Shown here: positions 50,704-59,365 of the stretch, one piece after another
Numbering within the stretch: position 1 is the first letter of the stretch
How the letters are laid out: each line of letters opens with the position of its first letter
Assembly (NCBI GenBank): GCA_022820485.1
Contig: JAJEFJ010000066.1
Span: 1 to 64,000, forward strand
Source: Candidatus Latescibacterota bacterium
GTDB taxonomy: Bacteria > Latescibacterota > UBA2968 > UBA8231
DNA: 64,000 bases
Direction of reading: 5' to 3'
Notes under the pieces: model-generated
What the model was told of the DNA's origin: nothing
What the model saw: only the letters and a program-made list of their open reading frames with translations
Database searches by the model: none
Program-made: the position numbers and the translations under genes

Positions 50704-51708
50704 ATGAACCTAGAGAAAAAGGCTATATCCCAGTACCTGAAACGCAAAAAACTGCGCACCGACGAGGGGCCGATCCGCGTCCAGAGCTTGAGTGACGGGC
50801 TAAAAAATCGGGTGTACTACGTAGAGGCTGCCAATCAGGCTTGGATCGTCAAGCAGGCGCACTCGCGCGTCCAAATCAAGGAGCGCTGGTGGACCGATCG
50901 GCGGCGCATCTTCGCCGAGAAGAGCTGCATCGAGCGCTTGGCGGCATTTCTCGCTCCCGAGGTCTTGCCGGAAGTCCTGCTCGAAGACCGCACGGACTTC
51001 ATCCTCGTGACGACTCCGCCGCCGCACAACGCCCTGTCGTGGGAAGGCGACTTGGTCAATGGCCGCATCGACCTGCAAATCGCCGTCCAGTGCGGCGAAC
51101 TGCTGGCCACGGTCCACAACGAGACCGCCAACTCGTCCGAGGTCGCTGACGAGTTGGCATCTACTAAGGCATTTGAGCAACTGCGCATTGACCCGCACTA
51201 CAACTACATCGCCAACGCCTATCCCGACCTCAAAAAGGCCATTGCCGTCCATACCAACCGCTTGCTCAAAGAGGGGTTTTGTCTCGTCTTGGGCGACTTG
51301 CGGCCCCGCAACGTATGGGTCGCCAACGGCCAGCCCTATTGGGTCGATTTTGCCACCGCCCACTACGGCTATCCCACCTTTGACCTCGCCTTCTACACGG
51401 CTGATATGTGCATCAAGGCCATGCAGAATACCGCCCAAAAAGCCGCCTATTTAGAGGCCGTCAATGTATTCTGGAACAGCTATTTTCAGAATGCGAGCTA
51501 CAAGAAAGCCGAGGAAGTCAAACACCAAGCCGTACACGATCTCGGCTGCCTGCTATTGAGCGCGACCGATGGCCGCCAGCCAGTCGCGCTCGACGACGAA
51601 CGCATCGTCGGGCTCTCGCGGCGCATCTCCCAGAGCTTGATTTTAACGGGATTGGGACGAATCGAGGAAGTCACCGAGTTCGTCAATCGGACACTGATCG
51701 ACGGCTAG
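50704..51708 (+). CDS. APH-fold kinase resembling methylthioribose kinase
   Basis: 334 residues with a protein kinase-like fold. The pattern SLSDGLKNRVYYVEAANQ (nucleotide loop), IVKQAHSR (Lys50), FEQLRIDPHYNYIA and WVDFATAHYG resembles methylthioribose kinase MtnK. In the catalytic loop the usual HGDLHxxN appears as LGDLRPRNVWV, so the His is replaced by Leu while Asp198 and Asn203 remain; Asp215 of VDF is intact. Activity is therefore plausible but not certain, and the substrate is unknown. It follows lipA closely and converges with the GntR gene, overlapping its 3' end by 26 bases. Confidence 0.65.
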   Translation: MNLEKKAISQYLKRKKLRTDEGPIRVQSLSDGLKNRVYYVEAANQAWIVKQAHSRVQIKERWWTDRRRIFAEKSCIERLAAFLAPEVLPEVLLEDRTDFILVTTPPPHNALSWEGDLVNGRIDLQIAVQCGELLATVHNETANSSEVADELASTKAFEQLRIDPHYNYIANAYPDLKKAIAVHTNRLLKEGFCLVLGDLRPRNVWVANGQPYWVDFATAHYGYPTFDLAFYTADMCIKAMQNTAQKAAYLEAVNVFWNSYFQNASYKKAEEVKHQAVHDLGCLLLSATDGRQPVALDDERIVGLSRRISQSLILTGLGRIEEVTEFVNRTLIDG

Positions 51709-52429
51709 TTCGCTGCAAATCTCCGCTGCTGGAGCGGATGTGCGCTGCCATCGCCTGCCGCGCGGCCTCCGCATCCCGCCGCTGCAATGCTGCCAATATC
51801 TGGCGGTGTTCCGCCAGCGAAAGTTCGGCCCGAGGGCCAGCCAGCGCCGGCTCCGCTAAACTTTCCTTGATCCATTCTTGTAGATAATTGCGAGTGGTTT
51901 CGAGCAAGCTGTAGAGAATGGAATTGTGCGTGGCCCGCGCAATAAGTAGGTGGAACTGCAAATCGCTGGCGAGAAAGCGCCCCTCGTCAGAAAGCCCCCC
52001 GGCCATGCCGGCCAGCGCGTCGGCAATGGCCGCCAAATCCTCGGGCGTGGCCCGTTCGGCCGCCAAATAGGCGTTTTGCGACTCGAGCATCATCCGCGTC
52101 TCGCTCAGGTCTTGCAGCTTCTTGCCGTCGAGTAAAAACCCCCACTGCAACGCCCGCTCCACGTATTGGCCCTTGTCGCAGACAAACGTGCCCTCACCCA
52201 CGCGGCCGTCGAGCAGCCCCATCATGGACAACGACCGCAGGGCTTCGCGCAGCGAAGAGCGCCCAACCTGAAAGCGCTTGCACAGCTCCCGCTCCGGCGG
52301 TAGCCTGTCGCCGGGCTTGAGGACGTTGCGCTCGATCAAGTCTGTTATCTGCGCGATAATCTCGTCGCTGACGGACGTGCGCTGCACCGGGCGCATGGCA
52401 TCGTCAATCGGAGCCGTGGCTTTTTTCAT
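51683..52429 (-). CDS. FadR-subfamily GntR transcriptional regulator
   Basis: 248 residues from the ATG at 52429. An N-terminal winged helix (LKPGDRLPPERELCKRFQVG, RSSLREALRSLSMMGLL) is followed by an all-helical FCD ligand-binding domain with metal/acid-binding His at positions seen in DLQFHLLIARATHN and SLAEHRQILAAL. FCD regulators usually respond to small carboxylates or related metabolites. It is divergent from the corrinoid cluster, with a perfect inverted-repeat site 45 bases upstream of its own start, so it likely controls both itself and the cluster. Confidence 0.88.
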   Translation of the reverse strand: MKKATAPIDDAMRPVQRTSVSDEIIAQITDLIERNVLKPGDRLPPERELCKRFQVGRSSLREALRSLSMMGLLDGRVGEGTFVCDKGQYVERALQWGFLLDGKKLQDLSETRMMLESQNAYLAAERATPEDLAAIADALAGMAGGLSDEGRFLASDLQFHLLIARATHNSILYSLLETTRNYLQEWIKESLAEPALAGPRAELSLAEHRQILAALQRRDAEAARQAMAAHIRSSSGDLQRTSRRSVSD

Positions 52430-52473
52430 AGAAAGTGCCAAGTGTCAAATGCGGAAGAAAATAAAATTTGCCG

Positions 52474-52486
52474 ATGGTCAGACCAT
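52474..52486. promoter_or_regulatory. GntR/FadR-type operator
   Basis: ATGGTC-A-GACCAT is a perfect inverted repeat with the TGGT...ACCA pattern characteristic of FadR-subfamily sites. It sits in the 108-base space between the divergent regulator gene and the first gene of the corrinoid cluster, 52 bases before the latter. Confidence 0.7.
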
Positions 52487-52537: not shown

Positions 52538-53173
52538 ATGCAAATGGCACAAACTTTGGATCTTGGCTCGCGCGTCGAATTGGTCTCCATGGATCTCCAC
52601 TTCGACGACATTTCCATTGCGCTCTATTGCCCCGATGGCCCTCCCTGCTATCAAGTCCACACCTACAGCCATCTTCTTGGAGCCGCCGAGCGCGTCGCCG
52701 GAATCGCGGACGCCATGCAGGTGCTCGGCGGCATGGAGCAAACCAGCGACGGCCTGCTCCGCTTCCCCTGCGGCCACGCCCATCTGCTCGCGGTCAAGCG
52801 GCTCTTCCTAGAGGCTTGCAAGCTGCCGCCAGAGCAGCCCGTCAAGCCACGCCCACTGCACATCTTCGACAAAAAAGCCAACGCCACCATCGCCGTTGCC
52901 AGTCTCGGTCAGGGCCTGTACGAGGTCCGCGCTACCGAACAGGTCCGAGGTGTGGAGCGCCGCGTTGCCACCATCGCCCGCGGCCTAATCCGCCTCGGTG
53001 AGATGGAAGAAATCGCCGATCAACCCAACCAAGCCCGCTTCGGCTGCGGCCACTCCCACGACGCCCTAATCGGCCTGTTGCTCATCCGCGCCCCCAACGT
53101 GCGCGCTGCCGTGCGCGAGGCCGAAGCCATGGCCAGCCGCGGCGTGCTCTCAGCCCCCAGCGCCCAGGAATAA
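52538..53173 (+). CDS. unknown protein with duplicated CGHxH domain, first gene of corrinoid cluster
   Basis: 211 residues from the ATG at 52538; the ATG at 52544 is equally possible. No family recognised. The protein is an internal duplication: residues 38-95 (YQVHTYSHLLGAAERV ... RFPCGHAHLLAV) align with residues 128-187 (YEVRATEQVRGVERRV ... RFGCGHSHDALI). Each half has a two-strand start, a helix and a conserved Cys-Gly-His-x-His motif (Cys78/His80/His82 and Cys170/His172/His174) followed by a hydrophobic helix. The motif looks metal-binding. No signal peptide or membrane span. Its place ahead of the methyltransferase and corrinoid protein genes suggests a partner of methyl transfer or cobalamin handling. 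Confidence 0.7.
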   Translation: MQMAQTLDLGSRVELVSMDLHFDDISIALYCPDGPPCYQVHTYSHLLGAAERVAGIADAMQVLGGMEQTSDGLLRFPCGHAHLLAVKRLFLEACKLPPEQPVKPRPLHIFDKKANATIAVASLGQGLYEVRATEQVRGVERRVATIARGLIRLGEMEEIADQPNQARFGCGHSHDALIGLLLIRAPNVRAAVREAEAMASRGVLSAPSAQE

Positions 53174-53184
53174 AGGAGTCTATC

Positions 53185-54219
53185 ATGCCTTCTTCGATGA
53201 CCAGTCGCGAGCGCGTCCTCGCCGCCCTCGCCCGCCAGCCTGTGGACCGCACCCCGCTCTGCAACCCAACCTCGGTGGCCACCGTCGAATTAATGGACCT
53301 CGTCGATGCCCCCTTTCCCGCAGCAAACCGCGAGCCCGAGCTCATGGCGCGGCTGGCCGCCACCGGCTACACCGAGTTGGGCTTTGACACCATCATGCCG
53401 GTCTTCACCATCATTCAAGAGTCCTCGGCCCTCGGGTGCAAAATCCAGTGGGAGCAAAAGGACAACTGGCCCACCGTCCGCATGAGCGAGCCAATCTGGC
53501 ACGAACCAGACGACATCAAAATCCCCGCCGACCTCTGCACCCACCCCGACACGGCCTGCGTCACCGAAGCAATCAAAATTCTGCGCAAGGAATACGGCGA
53601 CGAAGTCGCCATCGTCGGCAAGACCATGGGGCCTTGGTCGCTGGGCTACCACTGCTTTGGAGTCGAGCCTTTTCTGCTGCTGTCGCTCGACGACCCCGGC
53701 GAGACCAAGCTCTGCCTAGATCGCATGAAGGAGATCACGATTGAATTCGGCCAAGCGCAGATCGAAGCCGGTGCCGACGCTCTGTGCCTGCCCGACCACG
53801 CCACCGGCGACCTCGTCAGCGGCGAGTACTACGAGCGCTACCTGCGCGACTTGCACATCGAGTTTGCCGAGCGGCTTTCGGTGCCCATCATCCTCCACAT
53901 CTGCGGCCGCACGGTTGACCGCATGGAGTACATCGCCCAAACCGGCATGGCGGCCTTCCACTTCGATTCCAAGAACACGCCCGAGGAATCCACCCAAATC
54001 ATGCGCGATCGCATCTCATTAGTAGGCAACATCAACAACCCCGAGACTCTTTTTTCTAAAGGGCCGGAAGTCGTCGGTGCCGAAGTCGTGCGCAACCTCG
54101 AAGCCGGCGTCCAACTCATCGGCCCAGAGTGCGCCATCCCCTTGCAGACTTCCATCGAAAACCTCAAGGCCATTCCCCGCACGGTACAAGAGTGGCACCG
54201 CGACCAAGCGCACAACTAA
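53185..54219 (+). CDS. UroD-fold corrinoid methyltransferase (MtaA/MtbA/CmuA type)
   Basis: 344 residues with a good ribosome binding site (AAAGGAG). The fold is that of uroporphyrinogen decarboxylase, but the zinc signature of the methyltransferase branch is present: His and Cys in ILHICGRTVD and a second Cys in IGPECAIPLQTSIENLKAI. In relatives this enzyme moves a methyl group between a corrinoid protein and a thiol or substrate; chloromethane and methoxyl enzymes also use the fold. Since the next gene is a corrinoid protein and methylene-THF reductase is nearby, it could load the methyl group from an unknown donor or transfer it onward. Haem synthesis is unlikely. Confidence 0.88.
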   Translation: MPSSMTSRERVLAALARQPVDRTPLCNPTSVATVELMDLVDAPFPAANREPELMARLAATGYTELGFDTIMPVFTIIQESSALGCKIQWEQKDNWPTVRMSEPIWHEPDDIKIPADLCTHPDTACVTEAIKILRKEYGDEVAIVGKTMGPWSLGYHCFGVEPFLLLSLDDPGETKLCLDRMKEITIEFGQAQIEAGADALCLPDHATGDLVSGEYYERYLRDLHIEFAERLSVPIILHICGRTVDRMEYIAQTGMAAFHFDSKNTPEESTQIMRDRISLVGNINNPETLFSKGPEVVGAEVVRNLEAGVQLIGPECAIPLQTSIENLKAIPRTVQEWHRDQAHN

Positions 54220-54235
54220 AAGAATGAGATCATAA

Positions 54236-54985
54236 ATGGCAGACATTACCGACATCGCCAATGAATTTATCCGCGACGAGATCGAAGAGTTTATCGAGCG
54301 CGACGAGGAACGCGAGCGCATCATCGGCATCTTTGCCCAAGCCAGCGAGCAAATGCAGAACATCGCCGCGGCCCTCATCGATGGCGACCATCTAACGGTT
54401 GACGAGCTGACCGGCCAAGCCATTGCTGCGGGCGTGGAAGCCCTCGAAGTCATGGACGATGGGCTGATCTCCGGCATGGCCATCGTCGGCATCAAATTCC
54501 GCGAAAACTTCATCTTCGTCCCCGAAGTGTTGGCTTGCGCCCGCGCCATGAAAGCTGGCATGACCCACATCGAACCTATTCTCTCGGCCTCGGGCGTCGA
54601 GCCCATCGGCATTGTGATAATGGGCACGGTCAAGGGCGATCTCCACGACATCGGCAAAAACTTGTGCATTATGATGCTGCGCGGGGCCGGTTTCGTCGTC
54701 CACGACCTCGGCGTGGATACCTCCGAAGACGATTTCATCGATGCCGTCGAAGAGCACGAAGCCCCGCTCTTGGGCATGTCGGCCCTGTTGACCACCACCA
54801 TGCCCAACATGGGCAAGACCATCGAGGCTTTCATCGACGCCGACTTGCGCGACGATGTCAAAATCATGGTCGGCGGCGCGCCCGTGACCCAGGAATTTGC
54901 CGACGACATGGGCGCCGACGGCTACGGCAAGGACGCCCTCGCCTGCGTGGCCTTGGCCAAGGACTTGCTGGATGAGGATACATAA
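54236..54985 (+). CDS. corrinoid (methyl-cobalamin carrier) protein
   Basis: 249 residues. Residues 30-115 form the helical cap domain (B12-binding_2), with GVEALEVMDDGLISGMAIVG and FFVPE-type FIFVPEVLACARAM. Residues 120-245 are the Rossmann B12-binding domain, with the lower-ligand motif DxHxxG in GDLHDIGKNL (Asp135, His137, Gly140), followed by MLRGAGFVVHDLGVD and IMVGGAPVT. The histidine coordinates cobalt. It carries methyl groups between the UroD-fold enzyme and other partners and needs a reductive activator, which is encoded at 55875. The N-terminal ~30 residues are an unusual acidic helix (RDEIEEFIERDEERERIIG). Confidence 0.93.
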   Translation: MADITDIANEFIRDEIEEFIERDEERERIIGIFAQASEQMQNIAAALIDGDHLTVDELTGQAIAAGVEALEVMDDGLISGMAIVGIKFRENFIFVPEVLACARAMKAGMTHIEPILSASGVEPIGIVIMGTVKGDLHDIGKNLCIMMLRGAGFVVHDLGVDTSEDDFIDAVEEHEAPLLGMSALLTTTMPNMGKTIEAFIDADLRDDVKIMVGGAPVTQEFADDMGADGYGKDALACVALAKDLLDEDT

Positions 54986-55034: not shown

Positions 55035-55225
55035 ATGCTAGATTTGAATGATCTTGGTAATGGCCTCCCAGCTATCACACCGAGCTTCGGCATGTCACTG
55101 GCAGAGGCTGGAGGTGTATGTTTGGAATCACAGGGCAGCAGATCAACCGATCCGACGGGACCTTACCATCGTATGTAATCGTAGTTGAGTTTGGACAACC
55201 CCTTGCTGAGGTTCAAGAAAAATGA
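55035..55225 (+). pseudogene. internally deleted and frameshifted gene, partner of the HigA-like fusion
   Basis: The ATG at 55035 opens a 47-codon frame whose first ~34 residues (DLNDLGNGLPAITPSFGMSL, AEAGGVCLES) match a family of ~150-residue proteins I recall. From about 55133 the expected C-terminus is found in another frame: RSDGTLPSYVIVVEFGQPLA then EVQEK and TGA at 55223-55225. The middle is missing. The native stop still overlaps the next start as ATGA (55222-55225), so this was the first gene of a coupled pair that has lost its core by deletion. Confidence 0.7.
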
Positions 55226-55860
55226 GTGTTCGCGATTCCCACAATAAGGCTATGGAGTTTGCCGAACGCGCCTTTGTAGTACGAGTGCAAGGCAACATAG
55301 AAGAATCTACCAAACTTTTCGAGAAAGCATTGGAGAATGAACTTGCGGCGATCTCCGAATTAGAAGCAGAGGGGCGAGTCGAACCGACGTACTCAGTACT
55401 GCATCGCAGCGCTGGTACGTTGGCGTTAGACTGCAACCAGCCCCGGAAAGCCGAGCAAATCGCAACCAAAGCACTCGCCCAAGATCCACCCCAAGAGATC
55501 GCAGACGAATTACGTGAGCTTCTGCATCGAATATTCTCGTTCTTAACAGATCAAAAACGCACCATCCCGCCCACGCATCCCGGAGCGATGCTAAGAGAAG
55601 ATTTTCTCTCCGACTACGCCTTGACGGCGGACTCTTTGGCCGATGAGTTGGGCGAATCTCGACAGACTATCCGCGAACTATTGCAAGAGCAGTGCTCTAT
55701 TTCGTCCATCATGGCCCTAAAACTATCCCGTTTATTCAGGAACTCTCCTGAGTTTTGGCTGAGCGCCCAACACGCCAGAGATCTTTGGGAGTTGGAGCAG
55801 CAATATCGAGACGAATTGGCTCAGATCGAGCCATTGCCACTATACACTTCTGAGCGATAA
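55222..55860 (+). CDS. TPR-like domain fused to a HigA-type antitoxin domain
   Basis: 212 residues. Residues 1-110 are a helical TPR-like region (NKAMEFAERAFVVRVQGNIE, SVLHRSAGTLALDCNQPRKA, PPQEIADELRELLHRI) found in small proteins coupled to the gene family represented by the upstream remnant. Residues 115-212 are a HigA-type HTH domain (HPGAMLREDFLSDYAL, SLADELGESRQTIRELLQ, LFRNSPEFWLSAQHARDLWE). The fusion is unusual to my knowledge. No HigB toxin is adjacent. The unit interrupts the corrinoid cluster and ends 15 bases before the activator gene, so it may be co-transcribed with that cluster. Confidence 0.7.
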   Translation: MSVRDSHNKAMEFAERAFVVRVQGNIEESTKLFEKALENELAAISELEAEGRVEPTYSVLHRSAGTLALDCNQPRKAEQIATKALAQDPPQEIADELRELLHRIFSFLTDQKRTIPPTHPGAMLREDFLSDYALTADSLADELGESRQTIRELLQEQCSISSIMALKLSRLFRNSPEFWLSAQHARDLWELEQQYRDELAQIEPLPLYTSER

Positions 55861-55874
55861 CGACGCCTTCGTCC

Positions 55875-57752
55875 ATGACCCAAATCGACCCCCAAGAATA
55901 CCAAAAGAGCCTCGACCGCCTGTCGGGCATCCTCGCGGGCATCGCCACCCATGCCGACGTGCAGGCGACCTTCCGCTGCCCGTACAAGAACCGCTTCGAC
56001 CAATGCACCGCCCACTTTGGCTGCCGCAACCAGCGCAAGCCAAAAGAGCCGGGCGGGCTGTTCCAGTGCGGCAGCGACGACCAACTCGACTACCGCTCGG
56101 CCTGGGAGATGGAGCAACGCCCAGCCACACCCGGTCGCGGGCAAATCCGCTGCGACGGCACCTCCTACCCGCTATCGACCGGCGGCACCCTCTTCGACTA
56201 CGCGGATCAACTCGGTGCCCGGGTACCCACCTCCTGCGGACGCACCGGTCACTGCCACGAGTGCATCGTCGAAGTCACAAGCGGCGCACAAGCCCTCAGT
56301 GCGCCAACGCCGGCCGAAGACTTCCTCGGCGGTGAGTTCCGGCTCGCCTGTCAGGCCAAAGTCGAAGACGCCGATGTCGATATCGAATTCGCACCGCTTT
56401 TTCGCACGCCCCGGATACTGACCCAGACCGTGGATCGATCCGCCGAGATCGACCCAGTAGTCCAGCGGCGCGGGCAAACCATCTACTACGGCGACGAGGA
56501 AATCGACCAATACCGCGGCCACCTCTACGGCTTAGCCATCGACTTGGGCACCACCACCATTGTCCTCGACTTAGTCGATCTGGAGACGGGCGAGAGCGTG
56601 CATTTGAGCGCGTTTGAAAACCCGCAGCGCTTTGGCGGCAGCGACATCATGCACCGCATCTCCTACGACGGGCAACACCCTGGCGAACTGCGCCAAGCCT
56701 TGGTCAAGGCGCTCAACCACGAGATCGCAGACCTCTGCCGACGCGGCGGCTTTGTGCGGCAGGAGATTTACGAGATAGCAGTCGCCGGCAACTCGACGAT
56801 GCGCGACATCCTCTTCCGCCTCGACGTGCAGAGCATCGGCCAAAAGCCCTATAAATCGCGCATTGAGCACGAATACCTAAGCGGCGAACGCACCGCGACC
56901 AGCCTAGTCGAAAAGACCCGCCGCCTCGGCCTAAGGGCCAATCCCAAAGCGCGCGCGTACTCGCTGCCGCTGATCGCCAGCCACGTCGGCGCAGACGTAG
57001 CCGCCGACTTAGTCGCCGTCGATATGGACCTTTCCAGCGAGAGCGCGATGCTAGTCGATGTGGGCACCAACACCGAAGTCGTCGTCGCCCACCAAGGCCG
57101 CCTCGTCGCGGCCTCTTGCCCGGCCGGCCCGGCCTTTGAAGGCGGCGGCATCACCTATGGTATGCCCGGTTGCGACGGGGCCATTGAGTCCATCGGCTGG
57201 GACGGTACGCGCTGGCAGTGGGAAACTATCGGTGACACCGCGCCGGCGGGCCTGTGCGGCTCTGGGCTAATCGACCTCCTCGCCGAGTTGCGCTGCCACG
57301 ACTTGATGACTCCCAAAGGCGTCTTCGCCGACAAAAAGCGTCAATTTGAGCTAGTCCCCGAGCGCGGCATCACCTTCTCGCGCCTCGACGCTTCAAACCT
57401 CGCCCAAGCCAAAGCCGCCAATTTCTGCGGCCAGTACATCGTCTTGCGGACCTTGGGCCTGAACCCGGGCGACGTGCAACAGCTTTACCTCGCCGGTGGC
57501 TTTGCCAACTACGTCGATGTCCAAGCCGCCATCGACATCGGCTTTTTGGCCCCCGTGCCCACCGCCCGCATCGCCAAGGTGGGTAATGCCGCCGTCCAAG
57601 GGGCGCGCGAAGTACTCCTTTCGGCCAGCAAACGCGCCCGCATCGAAGCGCTGGCCAAGCGCATTGAGCACGTCGAATTAGAGACGACCCCCGACTTTTT
57701 TGAACTCTTCGTCGAGGGCTGCCAATTCAAACCCATGCCCGCCGCACTTTAG
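55875..57752 (+). CDS. RACo-like corrinoid activation protein (2Fe-2S and ASKHA ATPase)
   Basis: 625 residues. Residues 35-65 contain four cysteines (35, 44, 50, 65; FRCPYKNRFDQC, HFGC, LFQC) not present in classical RACo and possibly a second cluster. Residues 88-172 are a plant-type 2Fe-2S ferredoxin (Cys121, 127 and 130 in SCGRTGHCHEC, Cys159 in LACQ). The C-terminal ~430 residues are the DUF4445 ASKHA domain, with AIDLGTTTIVLDLVD, AVAGNSTMRDIL, MLVDVGTNTEVVV and LAGGFANYVD. Such proteins reduce Co(II) to Co(I) corrinoid in an ATP-dependent way. Fits activation of the corrinoid protein at 54236. Followed by metF after two bases. Confidence 0.9.
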   Translation: MTQIDPQEYQKSLDRLSGILAGIATHADVQATFRCPYKNRFDQCTAHFGCRNQRKPKEPGGLFQCGSDDQLDYRSAWEMEQRPATPGRGQIRCDGTSYPLSTGGTLFDYADQLGARVPTSCGRTGHCHECIVEVTSGAQALSAPTPAEDFLGGEFRLACQAKVEDADVDIEFAPLFRTPRILTQTVDRSAEIDPVVQRRGQTIYYGDEEIDQYRGHLYGLAIDLGTTTIVLDLVDLETGESVHLSAFENPQRFGGSDIMHRISYDGQHPGELRQALVKALNHEIADLCRRGGFVRQEIYEIAVAGNSTMRDILFRLDVQSIGQKPYKSRIEHEYLSGERTATSLVEKTRRLGLRANPKARAYSLPLIASHVGADVAADLVAVDMDLSSESAMLVDVGTNTEVVVAHQGRLVAASCPAGPAFEGGGITYGMPGCDGAIESIGWDGTRWQWETIGDTAPAGLCGSGLIDLLAELRCHDLMTPKGVFADKKRQFELVPERGITFSRLDASNLAQAKAANFCGQYIVLRTLGLNPGDVQQLYLAGGFANYVDVQAAIDIGFLAPVPTARIAKVGNAAVQGAREVLLSASKRARIEALAKRIEHVELETTPDFFELFVEGCQFKPMPAAL

Positions 57753-57754
57753 CC

Positions 57755-59365
57755 ATGTCGCTGACCGCGCTCCATCCACCCGCCCGCTACTCGGGTGCCT
57801 GGCAGAAGAAACCCCTGCGCCACCTGCTCGAAACCACCGACACCTTCGTCCACATCGTCGAGTTGGTGACCTCGCGGGGCTTAATCACCGAGCGCGACGG
57901 CCGCAAGGTCCTCGCCCTCGCCCGCCGCCTCGCCGAGCATCCGCAATTCCACGCTCTGAGCATCACCGACAACCCCGGGGGCAACGCCATGATCAACCCG
58001 GACACCCTCGGCACAGACCTGATCTCGCGCGGCCAAGACGTCATCATCCACCTTTCCTGCAAGGACTGGAACCGCAACGCGCTGCAAGGCCGCGCTTGGC
58101 AACTTGCCAGCGAGGGCTTCAACAACATCCTCGCCCTGTCTGGCGACTACCCCATCAGCGGCTATCAAGGCACGGCCGGCGGGGTCTTCGACCTCGATTC
58201 GGTCAGCCTGCTCGAAATGTTCGCCGCCATGAACGCTGGGCTGAAAATGAAAAAGGGCAAGCGGACCCAGCGCATGGAGGCCACGGATTTTTATCTTGGG
58301 GCCGTAGTCAATAACCACAAGCGCTACGAGCGCGAGGTCATGCCCCAATACTTCAAGCTGGCCAAAAAAATCCACGTCGGCGCGGCTTTTGTCATCAGCC
58401 AGATCGGCTACGACGCGCGCAAGCAGGACGAGTTGCTCAAATACATGGCCTTGTGTGGTCTCGAGGTCCCGGTCATCGCCAACGTGTATGTGCTCTCGCG
58501 GCCGACGGCGCGCTTCTTCCACAAGGGCCACATTCCCGGAGTTGAAGTCACCGACGAACTGATGGCCGTCGTCGAAAAGCAGGCCCAAGCCAACGACAAG
58601 GGTCGGGCGTTCTTTTTGGAGTTGGCCGCCAAGCAGTGCGCCATCGCCAAGGGTCTCGGCTACCGGGGGGCTTATCTCGGCGGGCACCTGCAATACGGCG
58701 ACTACGAAAAAATCCTCGCGCTCGCCGCGACCTACTCGGAAGACGACTGGCGCGATTTTGCCGTGGAACTCTGCTTTTCCTTTGCCGACGAATTCTACTT
58801 TTTTGAACCCCAGGGCGACACCGGTCTCAGTTCTACTACTATCAACCGCGCGTACCTCGCCTCCAAGGAGCAAGCCGCCCTCCGCCAAGCGCGCGGCCAC
58901 CTGCCGCTGAGCTACAAGGTAAATCGCCGCATCCACGATCAAGTTTTTGCGCCCGAGAGCGCGGGCTTTCGCACTGGCGCTCATCTCGCCCGCGCTCTAG
59001 CCGAGCACCCCAAGGCCGCCAAGCTCTTCCACGCGGCCGAGCACGCGCTCAAAATCGCTGCTTTTGACTGCCGCGACTGCGGCGACTGCTCGCTGCCGGA
59101 CATCGCCTATTTGTGCCCGGAATCGCAGTGCGTCAAAAACCAGCGCAACGGCCCCTGCGGTGGCACGCGCCAAGGCAAGTGCGAAGTCGGCGACAAGGAC
59201 TGCATTTGGGCGCGTGCGTACGACCGCCTCAAAGCCTATGGCGAAGAGGAACAAATGCTCGGCGACGCAGCCGTTATCAAGGACGCAGCCTTACAGGGCA
59301 CTAGTGCCTGGACCAACGCCTTTTTGCAAAAAGATCACAACGGGAAAAAGGAAGATTCGCAGTAA
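57755..59365 (+). CDS. metF: methylenetetrahydrofolate reductase with fused MetV-like C-terminal domain
   Basis: 536 residues. Residues 20-330 form the FAD-binding MetF barrel (VTSRGLITERDGRKVLALAR, HALSITDNPGGNAM, CKDWNRNALQGRAW, ILALSGDYP, AQPEY-type GAAFVISQIGYD). The last ~110 residues are a cysteine-rich MetV-like domain with CRDCGDCSLPDIAYLCPESQ, CVKNQRNGPCGGT and KCEVGDKDC, likely binding zinc or iron-sulfur. In acetogens MetV and MetF are separate proteins that act as a complex; here they are fused. The enzyme interconverts methyl- and methylene-THF. In this cluster it would oxidise methyl groups delivered by the corrinoid system, or supply them in reverse. Confidence 0.9.
   Translation: MSLTALHPPARYSGAWQKKPLRHLLETTDTFVHIVELVTSRGLITERDGRKVLALARRLAEHPQFHALSITDNPGGNAMINPDTLGTDLISRGQDVIIHLSCKDWNRNALQGRAWQLASEGFNNILALSGDYPISGYQGTAGGVFDLDSVSLLEMFAAMNAGLKMKKGKRTQRMEATDFYLGAVVNNHKRYEREVMPQYFKLAKKIHVGAAFVISQIGYDARKQDELLKYMALCGLEVPVIANVYVLSRPTARFFHKGHIPGVEVTDELMAVVEKQAQANDKGRAFFLELAAKQCAIAKGLGYRGAYLGGHLQYGDYEKILALAATYSEDDWRDFAVELCFSFADEFYFFEPQGDTGLSSTTINRAYLASKEQAALRQARGHLPLSYKVNRRIHDQVFAPESAGFRTGAHLARALAEHPKAAKLFHAAEHALKIAAFDCRDCGDCSLPDIAYLCPESQCVKNQRNGPCGGTRQGKCEVGDKDCIWARAYDRLKAYGEEEQMLGDAAVIKDAALQGTSAWTNAFLQKDHNGKKEDSQ

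Follow-up and report, generated by a model that had tools for sequence, protein, structure and literature searches.

The first gene of a corrinoid methyl-transfer operon in the window (the whole 64-kb stretch of DNA that was analyzed) encodes a 211-residue protein made of two repeated halves, and in relatives this gene is almost never parted from the gene of its methyltransferase partner. Based on sequence, conservation, and gene context, we infer that it probably assists that enzyme system as a metal-binding protein, in a little-studied group of bacteria, mostly Latescibacterota. More specifically, we tentatively propose that it may be an accessory subunit of the corrinoid methyl-transfer system, specific to one MtaA-like subfamily, which would bind a metal, dock on its partner, and occupy the slot held elsewhere by DUF1638 (PF07796). 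The protein and its parts are as follows.

52538 to 53173, plus strand: the two-repeat protein, 211 aa, with two CxxxH motifs, first gene of the operon (open reading frame, model, repeat, conservation, and context)
52568 to 52822, plus strand: half-domain 1, aa 11 to 95 (profile match to half 2; secondary structure of the model)
52769 to 52783, plus strand: CGHAH, aa 78 to 82 (C78 and H82 invariant; H80 variable)
52850 to 53140, plus strand: half-domain 2, aa 105 to 201 (secondary structure of the model; profile match to half 1)
53045 to 53059, plus strand: CGHSH, aa 170 to 174 (C170 and H174 invariant; H172 variable)
53138 to 53167, plus strand: C-terminal tail RGVLSAPSAQ, candidate docking peptide (conserved; low model confidence)

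A preliminary description of this DNA had stated that the two halves align with each other, and this is borne out by profile comparison. Half 1 matches half 2 in hhalign with a probability of 96.9, an E value of 1.5e-10, and 36% identity over 58 columns, with CxxxH placed on CxxxH, and the score of 58.9 is far above those of the controls (at most 23.0 for 100 column shuffles and 9.9 for a reversed profile). Judged by these profiles, the halves are genuine repeats. In the AlphaFold model, each CxxxH lies between the final strand and the final helix of its half. C78, H82, C170, and H174 are each present in 53 of 53 nonredundant homologues, which extend down to 32% identity, so that the Cys/His conservation on which the earlier proposal depended holds for the terminal Cys and His of each motif. 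The middle His is variable (H80 in 15 of 53 homologues and H172 in 18 of 53). Therefore, although CGHAH and CGHSH do follow strands here, the CGHxH layout that had been described is not kept in the family, and the six potential metal ligands are ruled out in favor of four candidate ligands in a motif CxxxH that occurs twice. These four are the number of conserved Cys/His ligands looked for in a zinc protein. D19, R52, K113, Y128, and R142 are also invariant among the 53 homologues, and Asp111 is found in 52 of 53. The C-terminal tail (RGxLxAPSxQ) has R201, G202, L204, A206, P207, S208, and Q210 in at least 50 of 53 homologues and a pLDDT of <50 in the AlphaFold model despite this conservation.

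The family is absent from all of the libraries searched, and solved structures offer no fold match, in agreement with the earlier statement that no named family has this layout. The whole protein had no match above the curated cutoff in Pfam (best E value, 1.4) or NCBIfam (none), its halves had no match in Pfam when searched separately, and 18 family members searched against Pfam gave no consistent family. A PDB sequence-profile search returned only two antibody light chains (E values of 0.86 and 1.5). AlphaFold gave confident models for this protein and for the homologue from locus L015 (pLDDT of 86.2 and 85.2, respectively), in which the elements follow almost the same order, and Foldseek searches of the PDB with both gave nothing at an E value of ≤0.001 (best E values of 0.29 and 0.031; TM scores of ≤0.24). 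Because the terminal Cys and His residues are invariant and no known family is matched, a metal site with four ligands is plausible, in which the two CxxxH loops of the pseudosymmetric protein would come together and coordinate a single Zn (or an Fe or Fe-S center). Of the zinc or cobalt site suggested earlier, with a donor-activating or cobalamin-loading role, the metal site thus stands as plausible, but the searches yielded nothing specific for cobalt or for cobalamin loading. It is also possible, though we think it on the unlikely side, that the protein has a new fold and is a new corrinoid component, namely, a pseudo-2-fold 2Cys/2His metalloprotein that would serve as a catalytic or obligate partner of the MtaA-like methyltransferase, unlike the donor enzyme, carrier, acceptor enzyme, or activase.

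The surrounding genes and sites are as follows.

51683 to 52441, minus strand: GntR/FCD transcriptional regulator, divergent from the operon (PF00392 and PF07729)
52475 to 52485, no strand assigned: palindrome TGGTCAGACCA, probable FCD-regulator operator (sole TGGTNNNACCA in the 64-kb window)
53185 to 54219, plus strand: MtaA/CmuA-family (UroD-fold) methyltransferase, His-x-Cys...Cys site H238, C240, and C316 (PF01208, TIGR01463, and 4ay7 alignment)
54236 to 54985, plus strand: corrinoid carrier protein (PF02607 and PF02310)
55222 to 55860, plus strand: open reading frame with TPR and HigA-like HTH, between the corrinoid and activase genes (position in the codirectional run)
55875 to 57752, plus strand: RACo-type corrinoid reductive activase (PF14574, PF17651, and PF00111)
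55977 to 56024, plus strand: extra N-terminal Cys motif of the activase, CPYKNRFDQCTAHFGC (recurs in loci of this type)
57755 to 59365, plus strand: MTHFR-type protein with a DUF5981 C terminus (PF02219 and PF12225)

As the preliminary description had it, the two-repeat protein heads a corrinoid methyl-transfer cluster, its gene being the first before those of the UroD-fold methyltransferase, the corrinoid protein, RACo, and MTHFR. Past the end of the window, 3 to 6 kb farther on the same contig, are genes for a PF00809 methyltransferase (MT2; at C55:67207), a PF02574 homocysteine methyltransferase, and a PF13769 protein, and in two related loci (L010 and L050) the activase and MTHFR genes run on into such genes without interruption. 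Donor methyltransferase, corrinoid protein, acceptor MT2, and activase are encoded together, as in a three-component corrinoid system, and with MTHFR and the homocysteine methyltransferase they make up a complete route for methyl groups. The TPR/HigA-like open reading frame appears to be an insertion peculiar to this lineage, since tblastn found only partial matches to it, in L007 and L008. The extra motif of the activase (CPYKNxxxxCTAxFGC) has no Pfam match and in L015, L045, and L058 lies in a separate small open reading frame before the activase.

The UroD-fold protein scores 255.7 bits against TIGR01463 (cutoff, 235.4), which places it in the MtaA/CmuA family, and its H238-I-C240 and C316 align with the H-I-C and C of MtaA (4ay7). 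The His-x-Cys...Cys site of MtaA-type enzymes is described as activating thiol or methyl-thioether substrates (PMC10418091). Based on this site, the UroD-fold protein is probably able to activate a sulfur substrate by itself, and for this reason a partner role is the best place for the two-repeat protein. It is quite unlikely that the latter is itself the activator of the methyl donor, with a 2Cys/2His metal that binds the methylated substrate and a UroD-fold protein that only transfers the methyl group to or from the corrinoid. Such a role would suit the enzyme-like look of the protein, in which Asp19, Arg52, Lys113, Tyr128, and Arg142 are invariant beside the ligands, and the fact that no MttB or MtaB was recognized among the conserved cluster genes. 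However, the UroD-fold protein already has the activating site (PMC10418091), and the two-repeat protein diverges faster than its neighbor (about 50% versus about 80% identity), which is unusual for an enzyme that specifies the substrate.

Of 194 related genomes, 47 have a homologue of the two-repeat protein, almost all of them from the same class of the phylum, and the protein also turns up in a few other groups (including G102, G158, G175, and G365). Some homologue records are titled Poribacteria or Rhodospirillaceae, which as titles of metagenome assemblies may be wrong. A plasmid search gave no homologue, and a plasmid origin was rejected on that ground. In every fetched locus that contains both genes (86 entries from about 60 genomes, duplicates included), the gene directly precedes a member of the same UroD subfamily in the same orientation, at a spacing of 15 to 211 nt with one exception, a 1,466-nt insertion. 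A DNA-methyltransferase-like open reading frame, judged by its sequence, is inserted between the two genes in G027 (L059:8928 to 9827). The usual order after the pair is corrinoid protein, RACo-type activase, MTHFR, PF00809, PF02574, and PF13769. Near relatives that lack the two-repeat protein (G011, G013, G033, and G362) have no close UroD orthologue either (best identity, 44%).

The activase lies within 10 kb in 41 of the 47 genomes; the other six are G102, where the cluster is split, G039, G036, and G023, where the gene is near contig ends, G015, where the cluster is split over contigs, and G025. In G102 and G366 (the home of L012), the pair with UroD is intact and the corrinoid gene is on another contig; by coordinates, the G102 activase is also away from the pair, which is near a contig end. 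In G025, the homologue stands apart from UroD and the other cluster genes, an observation against the subunit reading. Thus, of the expectation that homologues always neighbor MtaA-type and corrinoid genes, the first part holds practically always, and only rarely are corrinoid or activase genes missing from the neighborhood, as in G102, G366/L012 (corrinoid gene), and G025. Of the two halves of the earlier proposal, the one with more support is that the protein acts alongside the UroD-fold methyltransferase. As an accessory subunit, the two-repeat protein would dock through its C-terminal tail on the methyltransferase or the methyltransferase:corrinoid complex and would be required either to make methyl transfer productive or to keep the corrinoid in a form that can be reactivated.

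The GntR/FCD gene is retained upstream of the two-repeat protein in many relatives. From general knowledge of this regulator family, we take the palindrome TGGTCAGACCA to be the probable operator of the FCD regulator. Of 56 distinct regions upstream of homologues, 18 contain the sequence TGGTC[A/T]GACCA, at 63 to 95 nt from the gene. The position of the two-repeat gene, first after the regulator site, would fit a structural or regulatory zinc protein outside methyl transfer, such as a sensor that tunes the GntR-controlled operon. This is extremely unlikely, because the gene is kept in operons without a GntR gene and without the palindrome (which 38 of the 56 regions lack) and because the 18 family members searched against Pfam have no match to a DNA-binding domain.

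Parallel clusters in G005, G013, G017, G018, G020, and G024 have DUF1638 beside the corrinoid protein and/or the activase (in G017, without an adjoining activase). On contigs of sufficient length, these clusters also show UroD-fold proteins and a PF00809-MTHFR-DUF5981 fusion (checked by Pfam in two of the clusters). Like the two-repeat protein, DUF1638 is a small protein beside a corrinoid protein and RACo, and it has a conserved Cys. In contrast, the conserved residues differ and there is no sequence-profile similarity between the two; remote homology was rejected (hhalign probability of 0.1, no detectable homology). None of the activase loci has both DUF1638 and the two-repeat protein, and the CPYKN...C...C motif found in activases of the present type or in their split neighbors does not appear in any of the nine DUF1638 loci scanned. 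Both accessory genes occur in 6 of the 57 RACo-bearing genomes of the phylum, and since avoidance at the genome level is not significant (Fisher P = 0.06), we used only the exclusivity at the level of the locus. Because no activase locus has both genes and the Cys motif divides the loci in the same way, the two-repeat protein is a candidate replacement of DUF1638. The argument from a shared slot is suggestive only, given the lack of detectable homology and the weak genome-level avoidance once parallel systems are counted.

In Phaeobacter, DUF1638 and a RamA-like protein are required for function of a split methionine synthase (PMC5764234), a genetic link between DUF1638 and B12 reactivation. 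This phenotype, the locus-level exclusivity, the restriction of the extra Cys motif to RACo of the present type, and the presence in G005, G018, G020, and G024 of a separate RACo paralogue with each accessory gene, on its own contig, are all consistent with a DUF1638 replacement that works with RACo in corrinoid reactivation, e.g., as an electron relay or a sensor of the Co(II) state. We consider this unlikely, since in broken operons the two-repeat protein stays with UroD and not with RACo (G102; G366 was mapped for the corrinoid gene only) and it matches no redox-cofactor family. It is very unlikely that the protein is a chaperone that loads metal into the UroD zinc site or cobalamin into the corrinoid protein. 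Its small size, its two Cys/His-bearing repeats, and its association with the genes of a zinc enzyme and a corrinoid protein would fit this description, but the ligand set fits a structural site as well, the UroD relatives in DUF1638 clusters manage without the protein, and no GTPase or transport partner was seen.

The pathway is a new variation on known corrinoid methyl-transfer systems. Its separate corrinoid protein, PF00809 MT2, PF02574 protein, and RamA/RACo activase are shared with MtgBCDE, the dual glycine betaine demethylase and split methionine synthase known from Ruegeria and Phaeobacter (PMC12478193 and PMC5764234); here, MTHFR is in the same cluster. It differs in that the methyl donor enzyme is an MtaA-like UroD rather than a member of the MttB family, and the two-repeat protein is present while DUF1638 is absent from the operon. 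Going by the available text of Kountz and Balskus (PMC10418091), type 1 mlp clusters likewise have an MtaA-like His-Cys-Cys protein, a corrinoid protein, and a Ram/RACE activase; they contain two or more Mlps (Mlp2 and Mlp3), and a tetrahydrofolate methylase is absent within 20 kb; the two-repeat protein is not among the components that this text describes. The present cluster has one Mlp, with MTHFR, MT2, and homocysteine methyltransferase genes alongside. Membership in type 1 was rejected on the single MtaA-like gene and the PF00809 MT2.

Methyl groups would pass to methyl-THF and on to oxidation through MTHFR, or to methionine, as in MtgBCDE of Ruegeria. The genome of the window has no long, MetH-type PF02574 protein, which G027, G030, G158, G175, G352, and G362 do have, and for this reason the cluster probably doubles as its methionine synthase, by analogy with Phaeobacter and Ruegeria (PMC5764234 and PMC12478193). 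PF01717 matches in this genome are weak and speak neither for nor against a MetE. G041 has 13 PF02574 matches, none of MetH length.

In marine and sponge-associated bacteria, C1 metabolism and methionine synthesis both draw on corrinoid methyl-transfer systems. The two-repeat protein is a second small protein, unrelated to DUF1638, with a conserved ligand set at an equivalent gene position, and a family missing from the searched databases is now given a testable role. If it and DUF1638 share one job, comparing the two would reveal that job; if their jobs differ, the family points to a methyltransferase subsystem, and a direct search for the substrate of that subsystem becomes possible. A literature search on corrinoid demethylation in Latescibacterota found nothing relevant.

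A small PF13769 protein lies beside the homocysteine methyltransferase at L083:10005 to 10286, L045:6747 to 7067, and L089:7052 to 7381. Its Pfam name, Virulence_fact, led only to unrelated papers and looks misleading in methyl-transfer clusters. In divergent genomes, a D-2-hydroxyacid dehydrogenase-type gene lies by the cluster (L015:8950 to 9903 and L045:12737 to 13741, both by Pfam, and L188:74 to 1126), and this neighbor is a possible clue to the substrate.
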